Below are positions 35,046 through 49,545 of a stretch of DNA of 64,000 nucleotides, in pieces; positions within the stretch are counted from its first letter, which is position 1; every line of letters begins with the position of its first letter. The stretch lies in contig NZ_FMXN01000004.1 of NCBI RefSeq assembly GCF_900104245.1, positions 62,001 through 126,000 on the forward strand, written 5' to 3'. Position numbers and translations under genes: made by a program. The notes under the pieces are model-generated. The model was not told the origin of the DNA, did no database searches, and saw only the letters and a list, made by a program, of their open reading frames with translations. Origin of the DNA: Pseudidiomarina indica. Lineage in GTDB: Bacteria; Pseudomonadota; Gammaproteobacteria; Enterobacterales; Alteromonadaceae.

Positions 35046-35744
35046 TTAGTCAGCAAGGCGCGCACGAATGCGCTTAATGGCTTGGCTATGTAATTGTGAC
35101 ACCCGTGATTCTGTCACATCCAATACTGCACCAATTTCTTTGAGGTTGAGTTCTTCTTGATAGTACAAGGTCATCACCAGCTTTTCGCGTTCTGGTAACG
35201 CCTCAATGGCTTCCATGAGCCGTTGTTTCAATTGGTCCGCACTCACCTGCGCCTCTGGTTCAGGTGTTTCTTCATCACTGGTTTCTAAAGTCGGGTTATC
35301 GGTTAACACATCGTCATAAGACAGCACCAAGCCATTATTGGTATCCAGCAACAGTTGCTGATAGTCCGCTAGGCTCATTTCTAACGCAGCAGCCATTTCC
35401 CGCTCTTCTGGCGGGCGTCCTAGCTCTTGTTCAAGGCGTCGTAAGGTTGCTTCCAATTCGCGACCACTACGGCGCACGCTGCGCGGCAGCCAATCACGAC
35501 TGCGCAGCTCATCAATCATTGCACCACGAATCCGTTGATGCGCAAAGGTCGAAAAAGCGACGCCCGACTCTGTATCAAAGCGGTCCACACAGCTTAACAA
35601 CCCTTCAACCCCGGCTTGGATTAAATCTTCCACATCAACGCCAGACGGCAACCTTACTTTCAGGCTAAACGCCTGCCGGCGTACCAAGGGGAGGTACTGC
35701 TCGATGACACTGTTACGATTGATTTTACCGTCTGCTGTATACAT
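35046..35744 (-). CDS. fliA: Flagellar sigma factor FliA (sigma-28)
   Basis: This 232-aa RNA polymerase sigma factor transcribes late flagellar genes. It has sigma region 2 (PLVRRQAFSLKVRLPSGVDVEDLIQ..., GVAFSTFAHQRIRGAMIDELR), region 3 and region 4 (LPEREKLVMTLYYQEELNLKEIGAVL with ESRVSQLHSQAIKRIR). It closes the flhB-flhA-flhF-(FlhG-like)-fliA cluster, 5 bp after the FlhG-like gene. Its expected targets are the five sigma-28 promoters found in this window. Confidence 0.97.
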   Translation of the reverse strand: MYTADGKINRNSVIEQYLPLVRRQAFSLKVRLPSGVDVEDLIQAGVEGLLSCVDRFDTESGVAFSTFAHQRIRGAMIDELRSRDWLPRSVRRSGRELEATLRRLEQELGRPPEEREMAAALEMSLADYQQLLLDTNNGLVLSYDDVLTDNPTLETSDEETPEPEAQVSADQLKQRLMEAIEALPEREKLVMTLYYQEELNLKEIGAVLDVTESRVSQLHSQAIKRIRARLAD

Positions 35745-35749
35745 GATTC

Positions 35750-36217
35750 TTAGCCTGAAATTACCAAGAGATCGATATCAAAATAACTTTTTGCGACTTG
35801 CTGAACATGACTCAATAAGCCCCGTCGAGACTGCATCGGTGGATATAATGCAATCATTTGCTTGGGCCCTTGTGCATGGTGAGCCGCTTTTAATGCCTCG
35901 TACGCGCGCTGGAAACTATCTAAATCCTGATCGATCCATAACGCCCAACGTGGATAAGTTTGCGCCAGCTCATTCAACTCCGGGTAATCTGAGGCAACCG
36001 GGATAATGCGCCAATGGTTGGGATCACCTACCCACTTTTTGCCTTGCTCGGCCCAACGTTGAAACACCTCAACCGCTCGAGTTGCTTGAGCTTTATCTAA
36101 GGCCGGTAATCCTAACACGACCACGTGCTCAAGCTCGCTATTAACCTGTAGTGATGTCGATTCTACTGATTTACTTTTCGCGGCCCACTGGCGTAAGCCC
36201 GCTGCTTGATCTGTCAT
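35750..36217 (-). CDS. Short FlhG-like protein without an ATP-binding P-loop
   Basis: This 155-aa protein stands where flhG/fleN normally lies, between flhF and fliA. Its N-terminus is MTDQAAGLRQWA, which fits the DQAxxLR helix by which FlhG proteins stimulate the FlhF GTPase. The MinD-type Walker A (KGGxGK) that should follow is absent. The rest (HVVVLGLPAL, WALWIDQDLDSFQRAYEALK, SRRGLLSHVQQVAKSYFDIDLL) looks like a worn-down later part of a MinD fold, about 130 residues short of FlhG's usual 280-300. ATG 36217 has an AGGAAG site and lies 10 bp after flhF. A longer frame from 36274 would start inside flhF. Confidence 0.7.
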   Translation of the reverse strand: MTDQAAGLRQWAAKSKSVESTSLQVNSELEHVVVLGLPALDKAQATRAVEVFQRWAEQGKKWVGDPNHWRIIPVASDYPELNELAQTYPRWALWIDQDLDSFQRAYEALKAAHHAQGPKQMIALYPPMQSRRGLLSHVQQVAKSYFDIDLLVISG

Positions 36218-36227
36218 GCTACTTCCT

Positions 36228-38354
36228 TTACCACTCAACTTGTCGTCCTGCCGCTTGCAGCGACGCATAAGCATTTAACACATGAATGAGCGCTGGGACC
36301 AGTTTATCACCTTGTACCCTGCCGCGTTTGCCACTCAAACTAAACAAGTCGCCGCGCAATGACGCAAACTCCGCACTGGGATGATACTCCAGATGAACCA
36401 CTGCGGCGGCAATCGCAGCGGCAACCCCGTGCAGCTCCTCGGCATTTAAATGAGACCAGACATCATGCAATTGACGCCACGCTAATCGTGTTAAGCGTGC
36501 ATATTCTTCGGTTTGCAGCATCATGGTCACCCGCGCCACCACTTGCTCGGCACTGCACTGACCGTCCACTAACCAATACCGGCGTTGAATCGGGTTTTTC
36601 CCCGCGCCGCCATGCAACGCACCGTGAATCAACTGATAAACGGGGCCTTGCTCGGTCAGTTGTGCGGCAGCAATGCTGAGTTCCAGCCGGCGGCGTTCGC
36701 CGCGATATAAAATAGTTTGGCGACTCAAGGGAATCCGCTGTTGGGTCATGCATTGTTGCACCGACACTTGACGACCTTCGCTGTAGACCCGGTGATTCAC
36801 GTTCATGAGCGCTAACCAACCTCGTTGTTGCTGGTCTAAAACGATCAGTACCGACAGTTCGGGCAAATAATCAAACAACTGCACCCCTGCTGTTGTGGGG
36901 GTAAGGTCACCGCTTTGCAAGACTGGCGGCAACTGCACCAAGCCCTCCGCGCACAGGGTTAAATGCGGCGTTAAATGCTGCCACCCTTGTAACGGCTGCG
37001 GGGCTGCCCAGCGCACAACCTCAGGCTCCAATTCAGCGAAATCCACCGCAACGAACGGGCTGCCGTCATCCTGGGGGTCGCACCACCATTGTGCCAACCG
37101 TCGAAAGCCACCCAACCGCAGTTGCAAGGTTTGCATTACCGCTTGAATCACCTTGCCGTGAGCGAATACTTGCTTCGGTACCACGCGTTCGTCGGCACGT
37201 GGCGGTTCGGCCGGAGTAATCCAATGGGCCGTTGCCGTGCCGCTGGCCAGACTATCATCAATCAACTGATGAATATTGGGGGCACATAAATCTTCTGGTA
37301 CCCGTTGCCCCACGGATACCGCCAAAATTTGTAATTGGTAACGAATAATTGTATCGACAATGGCCCCAACACGACCCGCCTCATCCAATTTGGTCAAAAT
37401 ACAATCGTGCACACTGAGGCCATTTTCGCGACCAATGCCTTGATAAATTCGTGCAACTTCATCCAAAGTCGCTGGCTGAGAGGCCGCATTCAATAGCAGT
37501 ACCAAACGGGTTTTATCGCGGAAGGACTCACTGGCTAATGCCGCTATCTTTTGCGCCAAGCGCTGATCCCGTTGGCTCATGCCCACGGTATCCACCAACA
37601 CCAAACGTTTGCCACGCATTTTGTCAGCCAAGGTTTCGAGACCTTCACCATCAGCCAATGCATGCATTTCCACCTCCAACAATTCGGCATAAATAGCCAA
37701 TTGCTGCTGGGCACCAATTCGATAACTATCGGTGGTCACCAACAACAAGCTGTCATTGCCATGTTGGATCACGTAATTCGCGGCAAGCTTGGCGGTGGTG
37801 GTGGTTTTCCCTACCCCGGTTGGCCCAATCAGCGCAATCACCCCTTGGTGTTGCAACAACTGCCATTCGTTGGGTTCCAACTCTCCTTGATGCGCAATCC
37901 GCGCCGCAAGTTGCTGCTTTAACCAGGTTTGCACATCTTGATAAGGCGTTGATTGATGATTTAAATGGGCCGGTAACAAATCAGCACATTGCTGTGCTAA
38001 TTCATCGCTAAAGTCGGCGCTGCGCAAATGTCGATAGAGTCGTTGGCGATTATCGTCACTCACTGGCTCTCCCTGCTGCTGTTGCAACAAATTGCGCATG
38101 GCCTGCATGTCAGCCATCAGTTGCTCCATGGCTTGTGCCATGGGTGGCATCGGCGCCTCAGAACTTGGCGCAGGCTCTGGCGCGGCCGTCGGCCCATTTT
38201 CAAGCAGGTCGAGGTCAGCTTCACGCATGGCAAAAATTTCAACCTCTGCGCCACTTTTGCGTGAGGTAATAATCACCGCGTCGTCGCCCAGTGCTTCCCG
38301 CACAAGACGTAAGGCTTGCCGTTGGCTATCGGCTTTAAAGCGTTGAATGGTCAT
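36228..38354 (-). CDS. flhF: Flagellar SRP-type GTPase FlhF with a long C-terminal extension
   Basis: This 708-aa protein is far longer than ordinary FlhF (about 370-500 aa). The N-terminal basic domain begins MTIQRFKADSQRQALRLVRE. The NG domain follows with G1 GPTGVGKTTTTAKLA (177-191), TTDSYRIGA (207-215), G3 DTVGM (255-259, Val for the usual Ala), G4 TKLDE (321-325) and SVGQRVPEDL (347-356). The canonical FlhF domains end near 372. Residues 373-708 form an extension I do not recognise. FlhF sets flagellar position and recruits early components. It overlaps flhA by 4 bp. Confidence 0.93.
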   Translation of the reverse strand: MTIQRFKADSQRQALRLVREALGDDAVIITSRKSGAEVEIFAMREADLDLLENGPTAAPEPAPSSEAPMPPMAQAMEQLMADMQAMRNLLQQQQGEPVSDDNRQRLYRHLRSADFSDELAQQCADLLPAHLNHQSTPYQDVQTWLKQQLAARIAHQGELEPNEWQLLQHQGVIALIGPTGVGKTTTTAKLAANYVIQHGNDSLLLVTTDSYRIGAQQQLAIYAELLEVEMHALADGEGLETLADKMRGKRLVLVDTVGMSQRDQRLAQKIAALASESFRDKTRLVLLLNAASQPATLDEVARIYQGIGRENGLSVHDCILTKLDEAGRVGAIVDTIIRYQLQILAVSVGQRVPEDLCAPNIHQLIDDSLASGTATAHWITPAEPPRADERVVPKQVFAHGKVIQAVMQTLQLRLGGFRRLAQWWCDPQDDGSPFVAVDFAELEPEVVRWAAPQPLQGWQHLTPHLTLCAEGLVQLPPVLQSGDLTPTTAGVQLFDYLPELSVLIVLDQQQRGWLALMNVNHRVYSEGRQVSVQQCMTQQRIPLSRQTILYRGERRRLELSIAAAQLTEQGPVYQLIHGALHGGAGKNPIQRRYWLVDGQCSAEQVVARVTMMLQTEEYARLTRLAWRQLHDVWSHLNAEELHGVAAAIAAAVVHLEYHPSAEFASLRGDLFSLSGKRGRVQGDKLVPALIHVLNAYASLQAAGRQVEW

Positions 38355-40435
38355 GCTTGCCCTCCAATCACGCTCACCACCTGAATGGTACGATCATCAG
38401 GGATTTCGGCTTGCGATAACACCACAAGGTCACGTAACTGGCGCCGCAAGAAGTGCGATAACAGCGGACGCAAAGCATGAGGAACCACTAACACCGGTGG
38501 CAGCCCCATGGCTTCCCCGTGCTGCATGGCTTGTTGCGTTTGTTCCTGAATGGTCACCGCCAAACCGGGCTCTAACGAACTATTTTGTTGCAACGCTTGG
38601 CTTAACATCTGCTCAAGCCCCGCATCCAAGCCCATCACTTTCAATTCACGTGCGCCACCAAAACACTTCTGCACAATGTTGCGGCCCAGCGAAATCCGTA
38701 CACGTGCGGTCAGTTCGTGGGCATCAGCTTGCTGCCCTTCAAACTCCGCCAAGGTATCGAAAATAGTGCGCAGGTCTCGAATCGAGACGTCTTCATCCAA
38801 CAGGTTCTGTAAGACTCGTTGCAAGGTCGTAAGGGTCACACATTTAGGTACCACATCTTCAACCAAGGCTTTATTTTCTTGGGTGAGTTTATCCACCAAC
38901 TGCTGTACTTCTTGGCGCCCCAAGAGCTCAGCTGCATAACGTTGAAGCAAATGGTTTAAATGAGTGGCCACCACGGTGCTGGCATCCACCACGGTGTACC
39001 CATAAATCTGAGCGTGCTCCCGTTGATCTTGCGGAATCCACTTGGCCGGTAACCCAAAGGCAGGGTCCGTGGTTTGAATGCCTTCAATATCGCCCGTCAC
39101 TTGCCCCGGATTAATGGCCAGCCAACGTTCTGGATGAATTTCTGCACGCCCAATCTCCCCCCCTTTCAGGGTGATGGTATAGGTGTTGGGCGACAATTCT
39201 AAATTATCGCGAATATGCACCACCGGTGGCAAAAACCCAACTTCTTGAGCGAATTTCTTGCGCACACTTTTAATACGGCCTAGCAGTTCACCTTGCTGGT
39301 TATCATCCACCAAGCCAATTAACCGATGGCCCACTTCCATGCCCAGCGTGTCCACCAACTGCACATCATTCCAGCTGGCTTCAGGAGCACTAAACGAGGG
39401 TGCGGGTGCCATCGCCTCTTCCGCTTGTTGTGCTGCTGCTTGTTTCGCTTGATGCTTTTGCAAGTACCAACCAAACCCGATCAACAAGGAGGTGAACAGT
39501 AAAAAGACAAAGTTGGGCATGCCCGGAATTAACCCAAGCAGACCAATCACTCCCCCGGCTAGAAAGAGCACTTTGGGGCTCACGAACAACTGCTTCACCA
39601 ACTGTTGGCCCACGTCTTGTTCGGTGTTAACCCGTGATACTGTTACCCCGGCCGCGGTAGAAATAATCAATGCAGGAATTTGTGCGACTAAACCGTCACC
39701 GATGGTCAGCAAAATATAGGTATGCGCGGCATCACCGGCGCTCATATCGTGTTGCATGACACCAATAATCAGACCGCCAATAATGTTGACCACCATGATC
39801 ACCATGCCTGCCACCGCGTCACCACGAACGAACTTACTAGCACCGTCCATGGCGCCGTAGAATTCGGCTTCTTGCGCCACATCTTGGCGGCGGCGGCGTG
39901 CCTCATCTTCACCGATCAAGCCTGCGTTCAAATCCGCATCAATGGCCATTTGCTTACCGGGCATCGCATCGAGGGTAAAACGCGCACCAACTTCTGCGAT
40001 CCGCCCTGCACCCTTAGTGATAACCATAAAGTTAATCACCACCAAAATTAAGAACACGACTAAGCCGACTGCGAAGTTACCGCCAACTAAGAACTGGCCG
40101 AAAGCTTCAATCACTTTACCAGCGGCGTCACCGCCGTTGTGACCTTCCATCAGCACGACACGTGTGGATGCAACGTTGAGTGACAACCGCAGCAGTGTAG
40201 AAAACAGCAACACCGCCGGGAACGCAGCAAACTCAAGTGGCTTTTCAGTGAACATTGCCACCAGTAGCACCATCAAGGAAAGCGCGATGTTAAAGGTAAA
40301 GAAAAAATCCAGTGCAAAAGGCGGTAGCGGTACCACCATCATCAGCAAAATGACTAAGATCAGTATCGGCCCCACCAGCAACTGCAGCTGGGCGCCTTGT
40401 AATGATTTTGCTAATCCCGTCATGCTTAATTTCAT
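38351..40435 (-). CDS. flhA: Flagellar type III export gate protein FlhA
   Basis: This 694-aa inner-membrane protein forms the nonameric export gate. About eight transmembrane helices occupy residues 20-320, with the conserved FHIPEP-type region (GGNFAVGLVVFLILVVINF, TKGAGRIAEVGARFTLDAMPGKQMAIDADL). A large cytoplasmic C-terminal domain that binds chaperone-substrate complexes follows. It is coupled to flhB upstream and flhF downstream by 4-bp overlaps. Confidence 0.98.
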   Translation of the reverse strand: MKLSMTGLAKSLQGAQLQLLVGPILILVILLMMVVPLPPFALDFFFTFNIALSLMVLLVAMFTEKPLEFAAFPAVLLFSTLLRLSLNVASTRVVLMEGHNGGDAAGKVIEAFGQFLVGGNFAVGLVVFLILVVINFMVITKGAGRIAEVGARFTLDAMPGKQMAIDADLNAGLIGEDEARRRRQDVAQEAEFYGAMDGASKFVRGDAVAGMVIMVVNIIGGLIIGVMQHDMSAGDAAHTYILLTIGDGLVAQIPALIISTAAGVTVSRVNTEQDVGQQLVKQLFVSPKVLFLAGGVIGLLGLIPGMPNFVFLLFTSLLIGFGWYLQKHQAKQAAAQQAEEAMAPAPSFSAPEASWNDVQLVDTLGMEVGHRLIGLVDDNQQGELLGRIKSVRKKFAQEVGFLPPVVHIRDNLELSPNTYTITLKGGEIGRAEIHPERWLAINPGQVTGDIEGIQTTDPAFGLPAKWIPQDQREHAQIYGYTVVDASTVVATHLNHLLQRYAAELLGRQEVQQLVDKLTQENKALVEDVVPKCVTLTTLQRVLQNLLDEDVSIRDLRTIFDTLAEFEGQQADAHELTARVRISLGRNIVQKCFGGARELKVMGLDAGLEQMLSQALQQNSSLEPGLAVTIQEQTQQAMQHGEAMGLPPVLVVPHALRPLLSHFLRRQLRDLVVLSQAEIPDDRTIQVVSVIGGQA

Positions 40436-41574
40436 GGTGCTGCCACCTCGTAATCCTCAGGAACTTCGATATTTTTCGGGGTTGGCGGCATCATGGCGAT
40501 GCCTTGGCGAGCTCGTTTTAACTGGAACGCCCAAGCGAGTACTTCAGCGACAGCTGTGTACAATGCCGCTGGAATTTCTCGCCCTAAATCAACATGCGCA
40601 TACAATGCCCGAGCTAATGCAGGTGCTTCTAAGCGGGGAACCTGGTGTTCATCACCAATTTCGCGAATTTTCTGTGCGACCAATTCCGTCCCCTTCGCAA
40701 TCACTTTGGGTGCCCCCATCCCATGCTCATCATACTGAAGCGCCACGGCATAATGAGTCGGGTTGGTGATAATAACGTCCGCTTTCGGCACTTCGCTCAT
40801 CATCCGGCGCCGTGCCATGGTTTGTTGTTGCTGCCGAATTTTCCCTTTTACAAACGGATCCCCTTCGGTTTCTTTGTTTTCACGCTTCACCTCTTCTTTC
40901 GACATGCGCAGCTTTTTCTTGTGGGTAAACATTTGATAGGGCACATCAAATGCCACCACCACAATCAGCGTGAGAATCATCAATAAACAAGCAAGTGCGG
41001 CAAGCCCCATGGCCTCGCCTAAGGCTTCTTTCACCTCAAGGCTCATGAGCCGCATGAATGACTGGCGTTGTTGCCATAAAAACAGCGTTAACACCGACCC
41101 CACCAGCAAGGTCTTCGCAATAGCTTTACCCAACTCTGCCAAGGCTTGGGTGGAGAAAATTCGTTTGAGTCCCTTCAACGGGTTCAGCTTTTCAAATTTT
41201 GGCGCCATGGCTTTGGCCGAGACCACCCAGCCACCGAGCAATGCTGGGGCCACCAATGCCAGCAACAACATCACGGCAAACAATGGCAACAAACTGAACA
41301 AGGCCACCTGGCCCAGTTCTAACACGTTTTGCAACATGGGGCCCGCTTCTGACACTTGCAAGCGTTCAAACGAAAACGCTTGCTCCATCATCAAGCCTAA
41401 GTTGTTGTACAAGCTACTGCCCATGGACCACAGCATCAACACACCGCCGAACAAGATCACAAAAGTGGTCAGCTCGCGCGATCGCGCAACCTGACCTTCT
41501 TCTCGAGACTTTTCCAGCCTTCGAGCCGTGGGTTCTTCTGTTTTTTCCTGATCGCTTGTTTGATTCTCTGCCAT
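40432..41574 (-). CDS. flhB: Flagellar export switch protein FlhB
   Basis: This 380-aa export apparatus protein switches substrate specificity from rod/hook to filament. It has an N-terminal EKTEEPTARRLEKSREEGQVARS segment, four transmembrane helices (about 35-215) and a cytoplasmic domain with the autocleavage motif NPTH at 271-274. It heads the flhBAF cluster. A separate gene with a FlhB C-terminal domain (fhlB, 44483-44785) lies in the same region. Confidence 0.98.
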   Translation of the reverse strand: MAENQTSDQEKTEEPTARRLEKSREEGQVARSRELTTFVILFGGVLMLWSMGSSLYNNLGLMMEQAFSFERLQVSEAGPMLQNVLELGQVALFSLLPLFAVMLLLALVAPALLGGWVVSAKAMAPKFEKLNPLKGLKRIFSTQALAELGKAIAKTLLVGSVLTLFLWQQRQSFMRLMSLEVKEALGEAMGLAALACLLMILTLIVVVAFDVPYQMFTHKKKLRMSKEEVKRENKETEGDPFVKGKIRQQQQTMARRRMMSEVPKADVIITNPTHYAVALQYDEHGMGAPKVIAKGTELVAQKIREIGDEHQVPRLEAPALARALYAHVDLGREIPAALYTAVAEVLAWAFQLKRARQGIAMMPPTPKNIEVPEDYEVAAP

Positions 41575-43440: not shown

Positions 43441-43467
43441 ATATCGGCTGCAATAGTGGTGACTTAA
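43441..43467 (-). promoter_or_regulatory. Sigma-28 promoter of motAB
   Basis: Read on the minus strand: -35 TTAAG (43467-43463), a 14-bp spacer and -10 GCCGATAT (43448-43441). The -35 overlaps the flhC stop codon. This lets motAB be expressed late although it lies right behind flhDC. Confidence 0.75.
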
Positions 43468-44006
43468 ATTTCATTTTGCTTTTTCGTCGTCTTCTTCAGC
43501 GGTTTTCCTGCCCGCGACGGCGGTTGACACACCCCACACACATAATCGTCATCAGGCGTATGGGCATGATTCACAAAATTTAGGCCACAACTGACACAGC
43601 GAGACAACTGGAACATGTCACTTTCAAAAAAACGCAGCAGCGTCCAGGCTCGTGTTAACGCCAAAACTTCTTCTTCGCCGCTCATTTGAATGTGTTCTTG
43701 ATACAACCGATAGGCCTTAATAAACGCCGGTAAACGTTCCAGTCCCTGCTCTTGGTGTAAACGAACATAAATATTATAAAAAAATGACGAGTGAACGTTA
43801 GGTTGCCAGGTCATGAACCAATCCGTCGAAAAAGGCAACATTCCCTTGGGTGGGGATTTGCCCGCAACCTCCTTGTACAACCTGACTAGCCGCCCTCTAT
43901 TCAAACTGACTTCAGATTCAAGTACTTGTAATCGCGCCCCTAATTCTATGAGTTCAATTGCAAGTTTTACCTGATTCAATTCGTCAAGTAACTTTTTGGC
44001 AGTCAT
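43464..44006 (-). CDS. flhC: Flagellar master regulator subunit FlhC
   Basis: This 180-aa subunit of the FlhD4C2 activator closely follows E. coli FlhC: AIELIELGARLQVLESE, RGRLVRLYKEVAGKSPPKG, MLPFSTDWFMTW, ALTRAWTLLRF. The zinc-binding cysteines are Cys137, Cys140, Cys157 and Cys160. FlhDC activates class II flagellar operons with sigma-70. flhD lies 35 bp upstream. Confidence 0.96.
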   Translation of the reverse strand: MTAKKLLDELNQVKLAIELIELGARLQVLESEVSLNRGRLVRLYKEVAGKSPPKGMLPFSTDWFMTWQPNVHSSFFYNIYVRLHQEQGLERLPAFIKAYRLYQEHIQMSGEEEVLALTRAWTLLRFFESDMFQLSRCVSCGLNFVNHAHTPDDDYVCGVCQPPSRAGKPLKKTTKKQNEI

Positions 44007-44041: not shown

Positions 44042-44341
44042 TTAGGCGGTGACTAAATGCATGGCTAAATGCGTCGCTTGCATGCCGGTGTCTCGTTTAT
44101 TGGTGAGGATTGCCTTTAACTGGCTCACATCACCAAAATTAGGTTGCAACAAACTATGAGATTGGCGAGCTAAAGTAGTGAGTTCTCGAACAGACATCTC
44201 AACAATGAGATCAGCTAACTCAGCATCTATTTTCAAGCGAAAAATTGCAGTATCGCGATCTTCAACGAGCAATTTCTGAACTAAAAGCAAGTAACTTAAG
44301 TTGAGTTCCTGCAATTCAGAAATGGTCTTATTCTGACTCAT
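44042..44341 (-). CDS. flhD: Flagellar master regulator subunit FlhD
   Basis: This 99-aa subunit of FlhDC is small and helical. It matches FlhD in ELNLSYLLLVQKLLVEDRDTAIFRL and in VRELTTLARQSHSLLQPNF. The ATG at 44341 (MSQNKTISELQ) is preferred; an upstream in-frame codon at 44362 would add 7 residues unlike the family. The 141 bp upstream (44342-44482) are AT-rich, as flhDC control regions usually are, but I could not define a promoter there. Confidence 0.95.
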   Translation of the reverse strand: MSQNKTISELQELNLSYLLLVQKLLVEDRDTAIFRLKIDAELADLIVEMSVRELTTLARQSHSLLQPNFGDVSQLKAILTNKRDTGMQATHLAMHLVTA

Positions 44342-44482
44342 GAGGATAAATCTCCAGCGCACTTTGATTTATTTTTGTAATTATATCCTTATATCTTTAG
44401 CAAATCTTAACATAACTAGTCAATGAAAAAAGTGGGGCTATTTTAGATACAAAGCATACATGTTTGTTAATAAGATATTGAA

Positions 44483-47841: not shown

Positions 47842-49545
47842 GTGTTCCGGTACTAACACATCCCGAATCCGCCCTAACTCTTTTAGACGAGCCCCTTCAA
47901 TCACTTCTCCCAATTTGCTGTCGGGTAGCCCTTTATGCGGTGCCAGACGTACTCGGCTCACTCGCCGTTGGGCGTCCAACCCTACCACCCAGGCCAATTC
48001 ACCTTTTTCGAAGCGCAGCAAGGAGCCAATGGGTAACACTCCAAAATGGGTCTGGTAACGTTTTACCCAAGCCTCGTCAAACTGATCCAACTTGGTTTGC
48101 AAGGACCGCGCCGCCGCAAATGCTGATAACGCCGGTCGATCGGGCCGCGACCGTTGCAAGGCATCAATGGCATCCACCACGGCTGCCGCCCGCGCCAACT
48201 GCCCAATCTCTTCGTGTTTTAACCCTTGAGGATAACCGGAACCATCCAAGCGTTCATTAATCTGCACCACCACATTCTGACAGATCACATCCGACAGCCA
48301 CTTCACGTCGCTCATTTTTTCCATCAGCTTTTGCACGTGGGTTTGCATTTCTTTATACAAATCCAAACTTAGGGTGGTGGCACGCCACAGCTCAGGTGCC
48401 AACATGCCTTTGCCCAAATCATGCATCATGGCAGCTGCCACCGAGGCTTTGCGCACCTCTCGTGGCAACTTCACCGAGTGAAGCAAATCTCCCAATCGCA
48501 CCGCCACCGCAAGCCCGTGTTTCACCCAGCGCGATTCTCGTTGCACGCAATACACCGCAAACAAACATTCTTGGCGGTCATCATCGAGCATATCCAGCAA
48601 GCGGTCGGCACTCTGTGATAATTGGTAGGCATTGACGGGCTGCCCTTGTTTGAGCATGACCATTTGACTATCCAAGTAACCAGCAATGCGCGCCATGCGC
48701 CGTGCCATGGGGGTGGCATAAGTATGCGCCTGGCGACGCCCTAAACGTTGATCATCTTCATCGCGAATACGGAATAATTCTGATTCACTGCGCTTGTCGC
48801 CGCTGGTGGCGTTTCGTGAGGCTTCCCGTTCAATTTCACGCACATAGCCCCACAGCTCCCGCTCTTGAGCTTTGCTAATATCAGCAAATTCAAACCCCAC
48901 CGCCAATACTTGTCGATCGGTGTCCGTTTTTAAATGGCGTACTTTGGCTTGTACTTGGAAGGTGGAACCGTTGGGAAAATACAGCTCAATTTCCGTTGCT
49001 AAATCAGGCAGCACTCGGGACACACCGTCTTGCATGTAGAATTCGACCAAGCAACCGGTGGCGGACAGGTCTTTTAAGTCCCCCCGTAATTCCACCAGCG
49101 CCATGTCATCGGTTTCGGTGCTCCGCAGTAGCACGCCCACATCCATGCCAATCCTCAAACTGGCTCGGAAGCTGGCACGACGTTGCTTCACGAAAATTTC
49201 GCGCGGCCAATCCACATAAGCAAATAAACGCCCTTCAACCGTCGAGAACTCTCGTACCGCCAACGGATTACTGCGCACCAAGCCACCCGGCGTGTGCCCC
49301 GACAAGATAAACTTGCCGCCTCGCCGTAATGAAGGCACCACATCGCGAATCGCGGTCAGGTCAAACAGCAGGTAGTCTTCTTCAAGTTGATCAACCAGCA
49401 CCACCGGATGACCTTTCTCGGCCGGCCCTAATAAGGTGAGCACGGCCACCCCAGGCTGGCTCAGCGCCTCAAAATAGGTGGCCAGTTCTACAATACTATT
49501 GACGGGGGTAAAGTCGTTGCTTGTTGGTTGCTTAGCGTCGCTCAC
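47839..49545 (-). CDS. YcgR-like PilZ protein fused to a divergent HD-GYP domain
   Basis: This 568-aa cytosolic protein has a YcgR-type N-terminal domain (about 20-110), a PilZ c-di-GMP-binding domain with R123-x3-R127 and D159-x-S161-x2-G164, a helical linker and a C-terminal HD-GYP phosphodiesterase-like domain. HD is at 375-376 and the GYP-like DGSGYP at 434-439. The canonical HHE metal motif is replaced by INE (429-431), so hydrolysis is doubtful. GTG 49545 has AAAGGAG upstream. A sigma-28 promoter precedes it, tying it to the late flagellar regulon, probably as a c-di-GMP brake. Confidence 0.88.
   Translation of the reverse strand: MSDAKQPTSNDFTPVNSIVELATYFEALSQPGVAVLTLLGPAEKGHPVVLVDQLEEDYLLFDLTAIRDVVPSLRRGGKFILSGHTPGGLVRSNPLAVREFSTVEGRLFAYVDWPREIFVKQRRASFRASLRIGMDVGVLLRSTETDDMALVELRGDLKDLSATGCLVEFYMQDGVSRVLPDLATEIELYFPNGSTFQVQAKVRHLKTDTDRQVLAVGFEFADISKAQERELWGYVREIEREASRNATSGDKRSESELFRIRDEDDQRLGRRQAHTYATPMARRMARIAGYLDSQMVMLKQGQPVNAYQLSQSADRLLDMLDDDRQECLFAVYCVQRESRWVKHGLAVAVRLGDLLHSVKLPREVRKASVAAAMMHDLGKGMLAPELWRATTLSLDLYKEMQTHVQKLMEKMSDVKWLSDVICQNVVVQINERLDGSGYPQGLKHEEIGQLARAAAVVDAIDALQRSRPDRPALSAFAAARSLQTKLDQFDEAWVKRYQTHFGVLPIGSLLRFEKGELAWVVGLDAQRRVSRVRLAPHKGLPDSKLGEVIEGARLKELGRIRDVLVPEH

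Follow-up and report, generated by a model that had tools for sequence, protein, structure and literature searches.

The closest described counterparts of the locus presented here are the FlhF-FlhG systems, for which one published account gives the conserved glutamine of the FlhG motif DQAxxLR a stimulatory role in the FlhF dimer, and attributes to FlhG an ATP-dependent dimerisation, membrane binding via a C-terminal helix and, in monotrichous species, FlrA/FleQ repression (PMC12826062). The same source presents the FlhG-FleQ link as known only from monotrichous species, states that, FlrA/FleQ systems apart, the action of FlhF or FlhG on the transcription machinery is virtually unknown, and describes enteric bacteria as having acquired a betaproteobacterial flagellar operon without flhF and flhG (PMC12826062). 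FlhDC control and multiple polar flagella are described for Burkholderia glumae (PMC3885665), and within the genus Pseudidiomarina a lone polar flagellum, a peritrichous arrangement and the absence of flagella have all been described (PMC6193092).

Here we examine a window of 64,000 nucleotides from Pseudidiomarina indica (the whole stretch of DNA analysed) in which a short gene occupies the place of flhG. Judged from sequence comparison, its product is most likely a shrunken, ATPase-less FlhG, because its body, once the N-terminal motif is set aside, matches the C-terminal half of FlhG. A search of the open-licence literature returned no title or abstract start on a P-loop-less FlhG or an FlhF-transposase fusion.

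Results

A short gene in the FlhG position of an FlhDC-type cluster

The flagellar cluster of the window is of the FlhDC type. On the minus strand it carries flhD (44045..44362, start approximate; PF05247, 1.2e-21), flhC (43467..44006; PF05280, 8.1e-79), a gene at 40432..41574 that we take to be flhB from its position and general features, flhA (38351..40435; 65% identity to the annotated E. coli flhA over 690 aa), flhF (36228..38354, 708 aa; TIGR03499 at 215.8 bits against a cut-off of 174.15, aligned to the solved FlhF 8r9r, residues 110-374), the short gene (35750..36217, 155 aa, without an ATPase motif) and fliA (35046..35744; sigma-70 region models). A gap of 10 nt separates the short gene from the stop codon of flhF, and one of 5 nt separates it from the start of fliA; these coordinates agree with the preliminary description of a 155-aa gene between flhF and fliA, in the FlhG position. 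It sits directly downstream of flhF in the window and in 14/14 other genus loci, 12 of which have an flhC match at the same place; in the other two, the fetched stretch stops before the flhC place (L064) or no flhC is present there (L070). A protein with PilZ and HD domains is also encoded within the flagellar cluster of the window, at 47842-49545.

The short protein, read from the ATG at 36217, starts MTDQAAGLRQWA; the same reading frame extends without a stop back to another ATG, 19 codons upstream. Fourteen of the 15 genus members use ATG as the start at this place and one uses GTG; 11 of the 15 have no alternative in-frame start before the previous stop, L004 and L014 do have alternatives, and in L018 a GTG start lies one codon ahead of the match.

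Beyond the genus, the arrangement resembles that of E. coli, where the order is flhDC-motAB-che-flhB-flhA-flhE. Common to both are flhDC, motAB and the order flhBA, and a Halomonadaceae relative (G421) reads flhF-short gene-flhE-fliA, with flhE (PF06366, 6.8e-16) again downstream. In E. coli, however, flhE follows flhA immediately with no flhF or flhG between, whereas the window cluster has flhF and the short gene. An FlhA tree of 43 rows was rooted at the midpoint, after manual thinning had reduced 71 short-gene rows to 29; L126, E. coli and L313 sit on long branches. In it, the 29 short-gene rows form one clade (100/99) that is sister to E. coli (100/100). This clade stands apart from the canonical-system FlhA of the same genus, family and order (L072-L075, L077).

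An invariant N-terminal motif without a P-loop

At the N-terminus, the DQAAGLR reported in the preliminary description is indeed present at residues 3-9 (36191..36211), and D3, Q4, A5, L8 and R9 are invariant in 103/103 distinct family members. DQAxxLR occurs in 121/121 profile-found ORFs of the loci examined, duplicates counted. The 67 loci fetched from named genomes by DNA pattern do lean towards the motif, because one of the two fetching patterns includes it; the remaining loci came from whole-protein searches. The motif stays fixed while the rest of the protein diverges, W69 and A142 being the other positions invariant in the 103 members, followed by the tryptophans W91 and W94 (0.99), W62 (0.97) and W55 (0.93).

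The missing MinD-type Walker A motif was likewise confirmed: neither GxxxxGK[ST] nor KGGxGK was found in any of the 103 distinct members, the window protein included, and a short GEGKS string in the linker of L109 is not a Walker A.

The AF2 model of the short protein, built from 15 sequences (mean pLDDT 82.4, pTM 0.76), places the motif in a predicted helix at residues 3-13, a low-confidence element (mean pLDDT 53 for residues 1-10). It is followed by a probably disordered linker (residues 14-28, 36134..36178; pLDDT <50 at 15-27), with 6-165 residues between window positions 12 and 32 across the 103 members, and then by alternating strands and helices to the C-terminus, forming an alpha/beta body (residues 29-155, 35753..36133) that contains no nucleotide-binding motif. 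Searches with the short protein gave no Pfam match at E 1, only a DprA model in NCBIfam (E 0.0063, 15.7 bits against a cut-off of 495), and a single match (E 0.85) among solved-structure sequences.

A conserved family under purifying selection

Within the genus, the short protein is present in 15/26 genomes, the window genome included, and the same 15 carry the matching fliA. Ten of the 26 have neither at E 1e-40 (three of these are <90% complete), and in the last, G021, fliA is canonical and FlhG has its P-loop. The flhA-flhF-flhG-fliA cluster of G021 (L072) is of the canonical kind as well and includes chemotaxis-type genes, in contrast to the FlhDC-type arrangement of the other members. Among the relatives fetched, the nearest is a MAG bearing the name Pseudidiomarina indica, with 89% identity in the short protein.

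A profile search of 369 genomes of the class gave two matches, one of them the window genome, and the scan of named genomes returned 67 loci: 14 in Idiomarina/Pseudidiomarina (one titled only as a gammaproteobacterial MAG), five in Aliidiomarina, 41 in Halomonadaceae, two in Alloalcanivorax, one in Mangrovimicrobium and four in Pseudomonas. Among the Halomonadaceae (the family of G421), 79/151 genomes match, ten of them weakly, and DNA was fetched for 39 of the 79. These counts are lower bounds, because the profile failed to pick up a further, more diverged member, which came to light in G328 on reading the locus. As far as its sequence distribution goes, the short gene is a conserved family, mostly of salt-tolerant bacteria. 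In another family, a fliA 59% identical to that of the window lies near a flagellin-like gene (L076, genome G051), with no flhF beside it in the 20 kb read.

The short gene is also, on codon comparison, under strong purifying selection. Nei-Gojobori dN/dS against the closest relative is 0.060/1.33, and the other five pairs give 0.011/0.172, 0.024/0.387, 0.016/0.465, 0.055/0.304 and 0.137/1.91; three of these six pairs share genomes, and two have near-saturated dS. Across the first 14 codons dN is 0 in 6/6 pairs, and 25 columns are invariant among the 15 genus members.

Erosion of the P-loop in other FlhG proteins

Forty FlhF loci were picked among the better-scoring matches listed from the 369 genomes, a sample in which weak FlhFs are under-represented. 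FlhF is followed by an ORF with [GSA]KGGxGK in 38 of them, 23 of these with DQAxxLR ahead; the remaining two have a variant loop (L219) and none (L233).

In the order of G165 (loci L285-L305; G379 belongs to it too), which we take to be probably Burkholderiales, 22/250 genomes match a P-loop-less query, a query that favours eroded cases. Fifteen of the 22 have an FlhG with DQAxxLR and without KGGxGK: two with no recognisable loop, six with the GK[ST] lysine replaced and seven that retain GK[ST]. The rest comprise one P-loop without the motif, four Soj/ParA-type or non-FlhG proteins, and L286 and L288, which have neither loop nor exact motif (DQGAGLR and HQGFSLS in its place), so P-loop loss is not always paired with motif retention. 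The FlhGs of L308 and L309, rows of the FlhA tree outside the short-gene clade, also have no P-loop.

Three named Burkholderiales (L351-L353, 3 of 23 matching plasmid-collection records), namely Burkholderia glumae BGR1 (pBGF2), Cupriavidus metallidurans CH34 and C. campinensis, all have DQAxxLR and no Walker A; a plasmid search with the FlhG of G165 gave no match. These proteins share with the short protein the retained motif and the lost Walker A, and the G165-order FlhGs are its nearest relatives by profile, but the Burkholderiales FlhGs have kept roughly their full length, with open frames of 271-297 aa against 155 aa. By sequence, it is plausible that they represent the same loss at an earlier stage.

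The body resembles the C-terminal half of FlhG

The 15 genus members by themselves compare poorly with the FlhG profile (probability 1%), aligning only through the N-terminus and a doubtful continuation. With the wider profile of the body (103 members, motif removed), comparison to 45 canonical FlhGs gave E 1.4e-3, a probability of 17% and a score of 27.9, above 150/150 column shuffles (maximum 25.6) and above reversed columns (16.6). Against 12 FlhGs of the order of G165, mostly P-loop-eroded and most of them found with the P-loop-less query, hhalign gave a probability of 88, E 3.1e-6 and a score of 44.3, again above 150/150 shuffles (maximum 24.6). Removing the two most eroded rows, those with no recognisable loop, left E 1.7e-5 and a score of 39.9, and all FlhGs together gave E 1.2e-5 and a score of 40.7 against a shuffle maximum of 22.0.

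The aligned segment (window residues ~84-153, 35759..35968) covers the region of FlhG that follows Walker B, so that in FlhG the P-loop and Walker B precede it and the membrane helix comes after it; the alignment to the G165-order FlhGs is collinear and falls in the expected place after the motif. Since the short protein ends two residues past this segment, the C-terminal membrane-targeting helix of FlhG has no counterpart in it. No relative was detected for residues 29-83. The eroded MinD fold that the preliminary description saw in the later part of the protein is therefore backed by profile evidence for the C-terminal half, and the first half of the body is left without a match.

Structure comparison was more diffuse. 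Foldseek with the short-protein model against the PDB gave no match at E 0.001; FlhG 4rz3 ranked seventh (E 4.7e-3, probability 1.00, TM 0.46) and FleN structures ranked 37, 40 and 44. Otherwise the top of the list consists mostly of Rossmann-like and flavodoxin-like folds, among them flavodoxin fusions and reductases, and several of these have a better E-value than FlhG does. Taken together, the short protein shares with FlhG/FleN/YlxH the flhF-fliA position, the N-terminal DQAxxLR helix and profile homology in the C-terminal half, but it has neither the deviant Walker A nor the C-terminal part of FlhG, and measures 155 aa against about 280-300.

Other ParA- and MinD-type proteins in the genome

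The preliminary description held that a P-loop FlhG elsewhere in the genome would speak against its reading; none was recognised with the ParA, AAA_31, CbiA and MinD models in the assembly (2.2 Mb, 99.9% complete, 31 contigs). PF10609, PF13614 and PF01656 match at 3, 3 and 6 places, respectively. We take these to be a Soj/ParA-type gene beside a gidB-type gene and, from model, sequence and size, presumably an Mrp-type protein and a tyrosine-kinase-like protein; three further CbiA places are weaker than these. TIGR01968 (MinD) has matches in 26/26 genus genomes, none of them over the model cut-off, and its best match in the genus is the canonical FlhG of G021.

A C-terminal extension of the neighbouring FlhF

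FlhF next to the short gene is itself unusual in length, with 286-399 residues from the QRVPED motif to its end in all 62 measurable loci (79 short-gene loci examined, at least two genomes counted twice), against 44-61 residues in the 24 measurable FlhFs among the 40 class loci and 41-48 in canonical relatives (5/5). In the window this extension spans 36231..37178. Below E 1e-3, its predicted fold (pLDDT 87.7, pTM 0.82) has six PDB matches, every one of them to Tn5 transposase or the Tn5 inhibitor (best E 1.8e-6, TM no higher than 0.42), and the next match is at 0.14.

The likeness to Tn5 transposase is thus one of predicted fold, and profile comparison of the sequences does not bear it out. 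The extension profile gave E 0.15 and a score of 19.4 against seven Tn5-like proteins (maximum of 100 shuffles 17.7), and E 0.27 and 17.3 against 14 that include these seven (maximum of 100 shuffles 22.8), the best alignments of the two comparisons lying near one diagonal. No conserved DDE acids were found in the 62 extension sequences, where no single acid exceeds 81% of a column and D and E together reach at most 89%; the Tn5-like comparison set does have invariant acids, so DDE catalysis is unlikely. Pfam gave scattered matches to one member each, a viral fold library no match at E 0.001, and a solved-structure sequence search only the FlhF GTPase end and one match at 0.34. A relationship of the extension to FlhG was considered and rejected on profile comparison.

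Discussion

We consider it probable that the short protein is a miniaturised FlhG, an N-terminal helix on a remnant body that would stimulate the FlhF GTPase without ATP-driven control, within an FlhDC cluster. The DQAxxLR helix is kept, and a presumably flexible linker ties it to a small body of alpha/beta type; the second half of this body would derive from the C-terminal half of the FlhG MinD fold. Because the P-loop and the C-terminal part are gone and no Walker B is recognisable, FlhG-like ATP binding, ATP-dependent dimerisation and membrane cycling would be absent, and the protein would most likely stimulate FlhF GTP hydrolysis constitutively or, alternatively, once the body has engaged a partner, for example the FlhF extra domain or the C-ring. 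Loss of the ATPase may be tolerable because the cluster carries FlhDC instead of depending on FleQ/FlrA, so that the ATP-dependent FlhG-FleQ branch would no longer be needed. Activation of the FlhF GTPase, the loss of ATP control and the reason for that loss are what we infer from these comparisons, along with the idea that the short protein retains only the GTPase-stimulating activity of FlhG. The named Burkholderiales cases help this reading at the sequence level, whereas L286 and L288, having lost the exact motif too, show that no simple rule applies.

One alternative is decay, given a gene far shorter than flhG that has lost the P-loop, with its frame perhaps kept by chance. We regard it as very improbable and, as far as sequence allows, reject it: dN/dS is about 0.03-0.18 in six pairs, 25 columns are invariant in the 15 genus members, and the gene is kept in Halomonadaceae and other groups, so that the earlier judgement of an intact gene that is not obviously a pseudogene stands. 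It could instead be that FlhG was replaced by a small alpha/beta protein of other descent to which a DQAxxLR helix had been fused, in which case FlhF would still be activated but the body would be no FlhG remnant. The weak match to canonical FlhG, the unmatched residues 29-83 and the flavodoxin and other Rossmann-like folds in Foldseek, several of which outrank FlhG by E-value, would all fit such a replacement, which we nevertheless hold to be rather unlikely in view of the collinear, correctly placed match to the G165-order profile (E 3.1e-6, or 1.7e-5 minus its two most eroded rows) and of the partial P-loop loss in that order, a plausible intermediate. A greater, though still minority, share of our belief goes to a protein that binds FlhF through the helix and serves mainly as a scaffold or brake, on the C-ring, the FlhF extra domain or FlhDC, with GTPase stimulation secondary. 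The variable linker (6-165 residues) and five strongly conserved tryptophans suggest a second partner, and the extra domain is present in 62/62 measurable FlhF neighbours; against this, the Gln held to be catalytic is invariant in 103/103, as expected if stimulation matters.

Returning to the miniaturised FlhG, a broader and more tentative proposal, to which we give slightly more credence than to the scaffold, is that the whole switch has been rewired. ATP control would have been abandoned, FlhG pared down to a remnant body that carries a GTPase-activating helix, and FlhF would have domesticated a catalytically dead Tn5-type domain for a second interaction, making this system a surviving sister of the lineage in which enterics lost flhF and flhG. 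The short-gene system would offer an intermediate for the enteric loss of both genes. More generally, the two halves of FlhG appear to have been separated naturally, with the FlhF-acting helix under strict selection and the ATPase discarded, so that the contributions of the two parts to flagellar position and to flagellar number could be tested separately. Among the carriers of the short gene is P. piscicola (L145), whose motility is ascribed in one paper to a polar flagellum, although its abstract uses the plural, polar flagella (PMC8055624).
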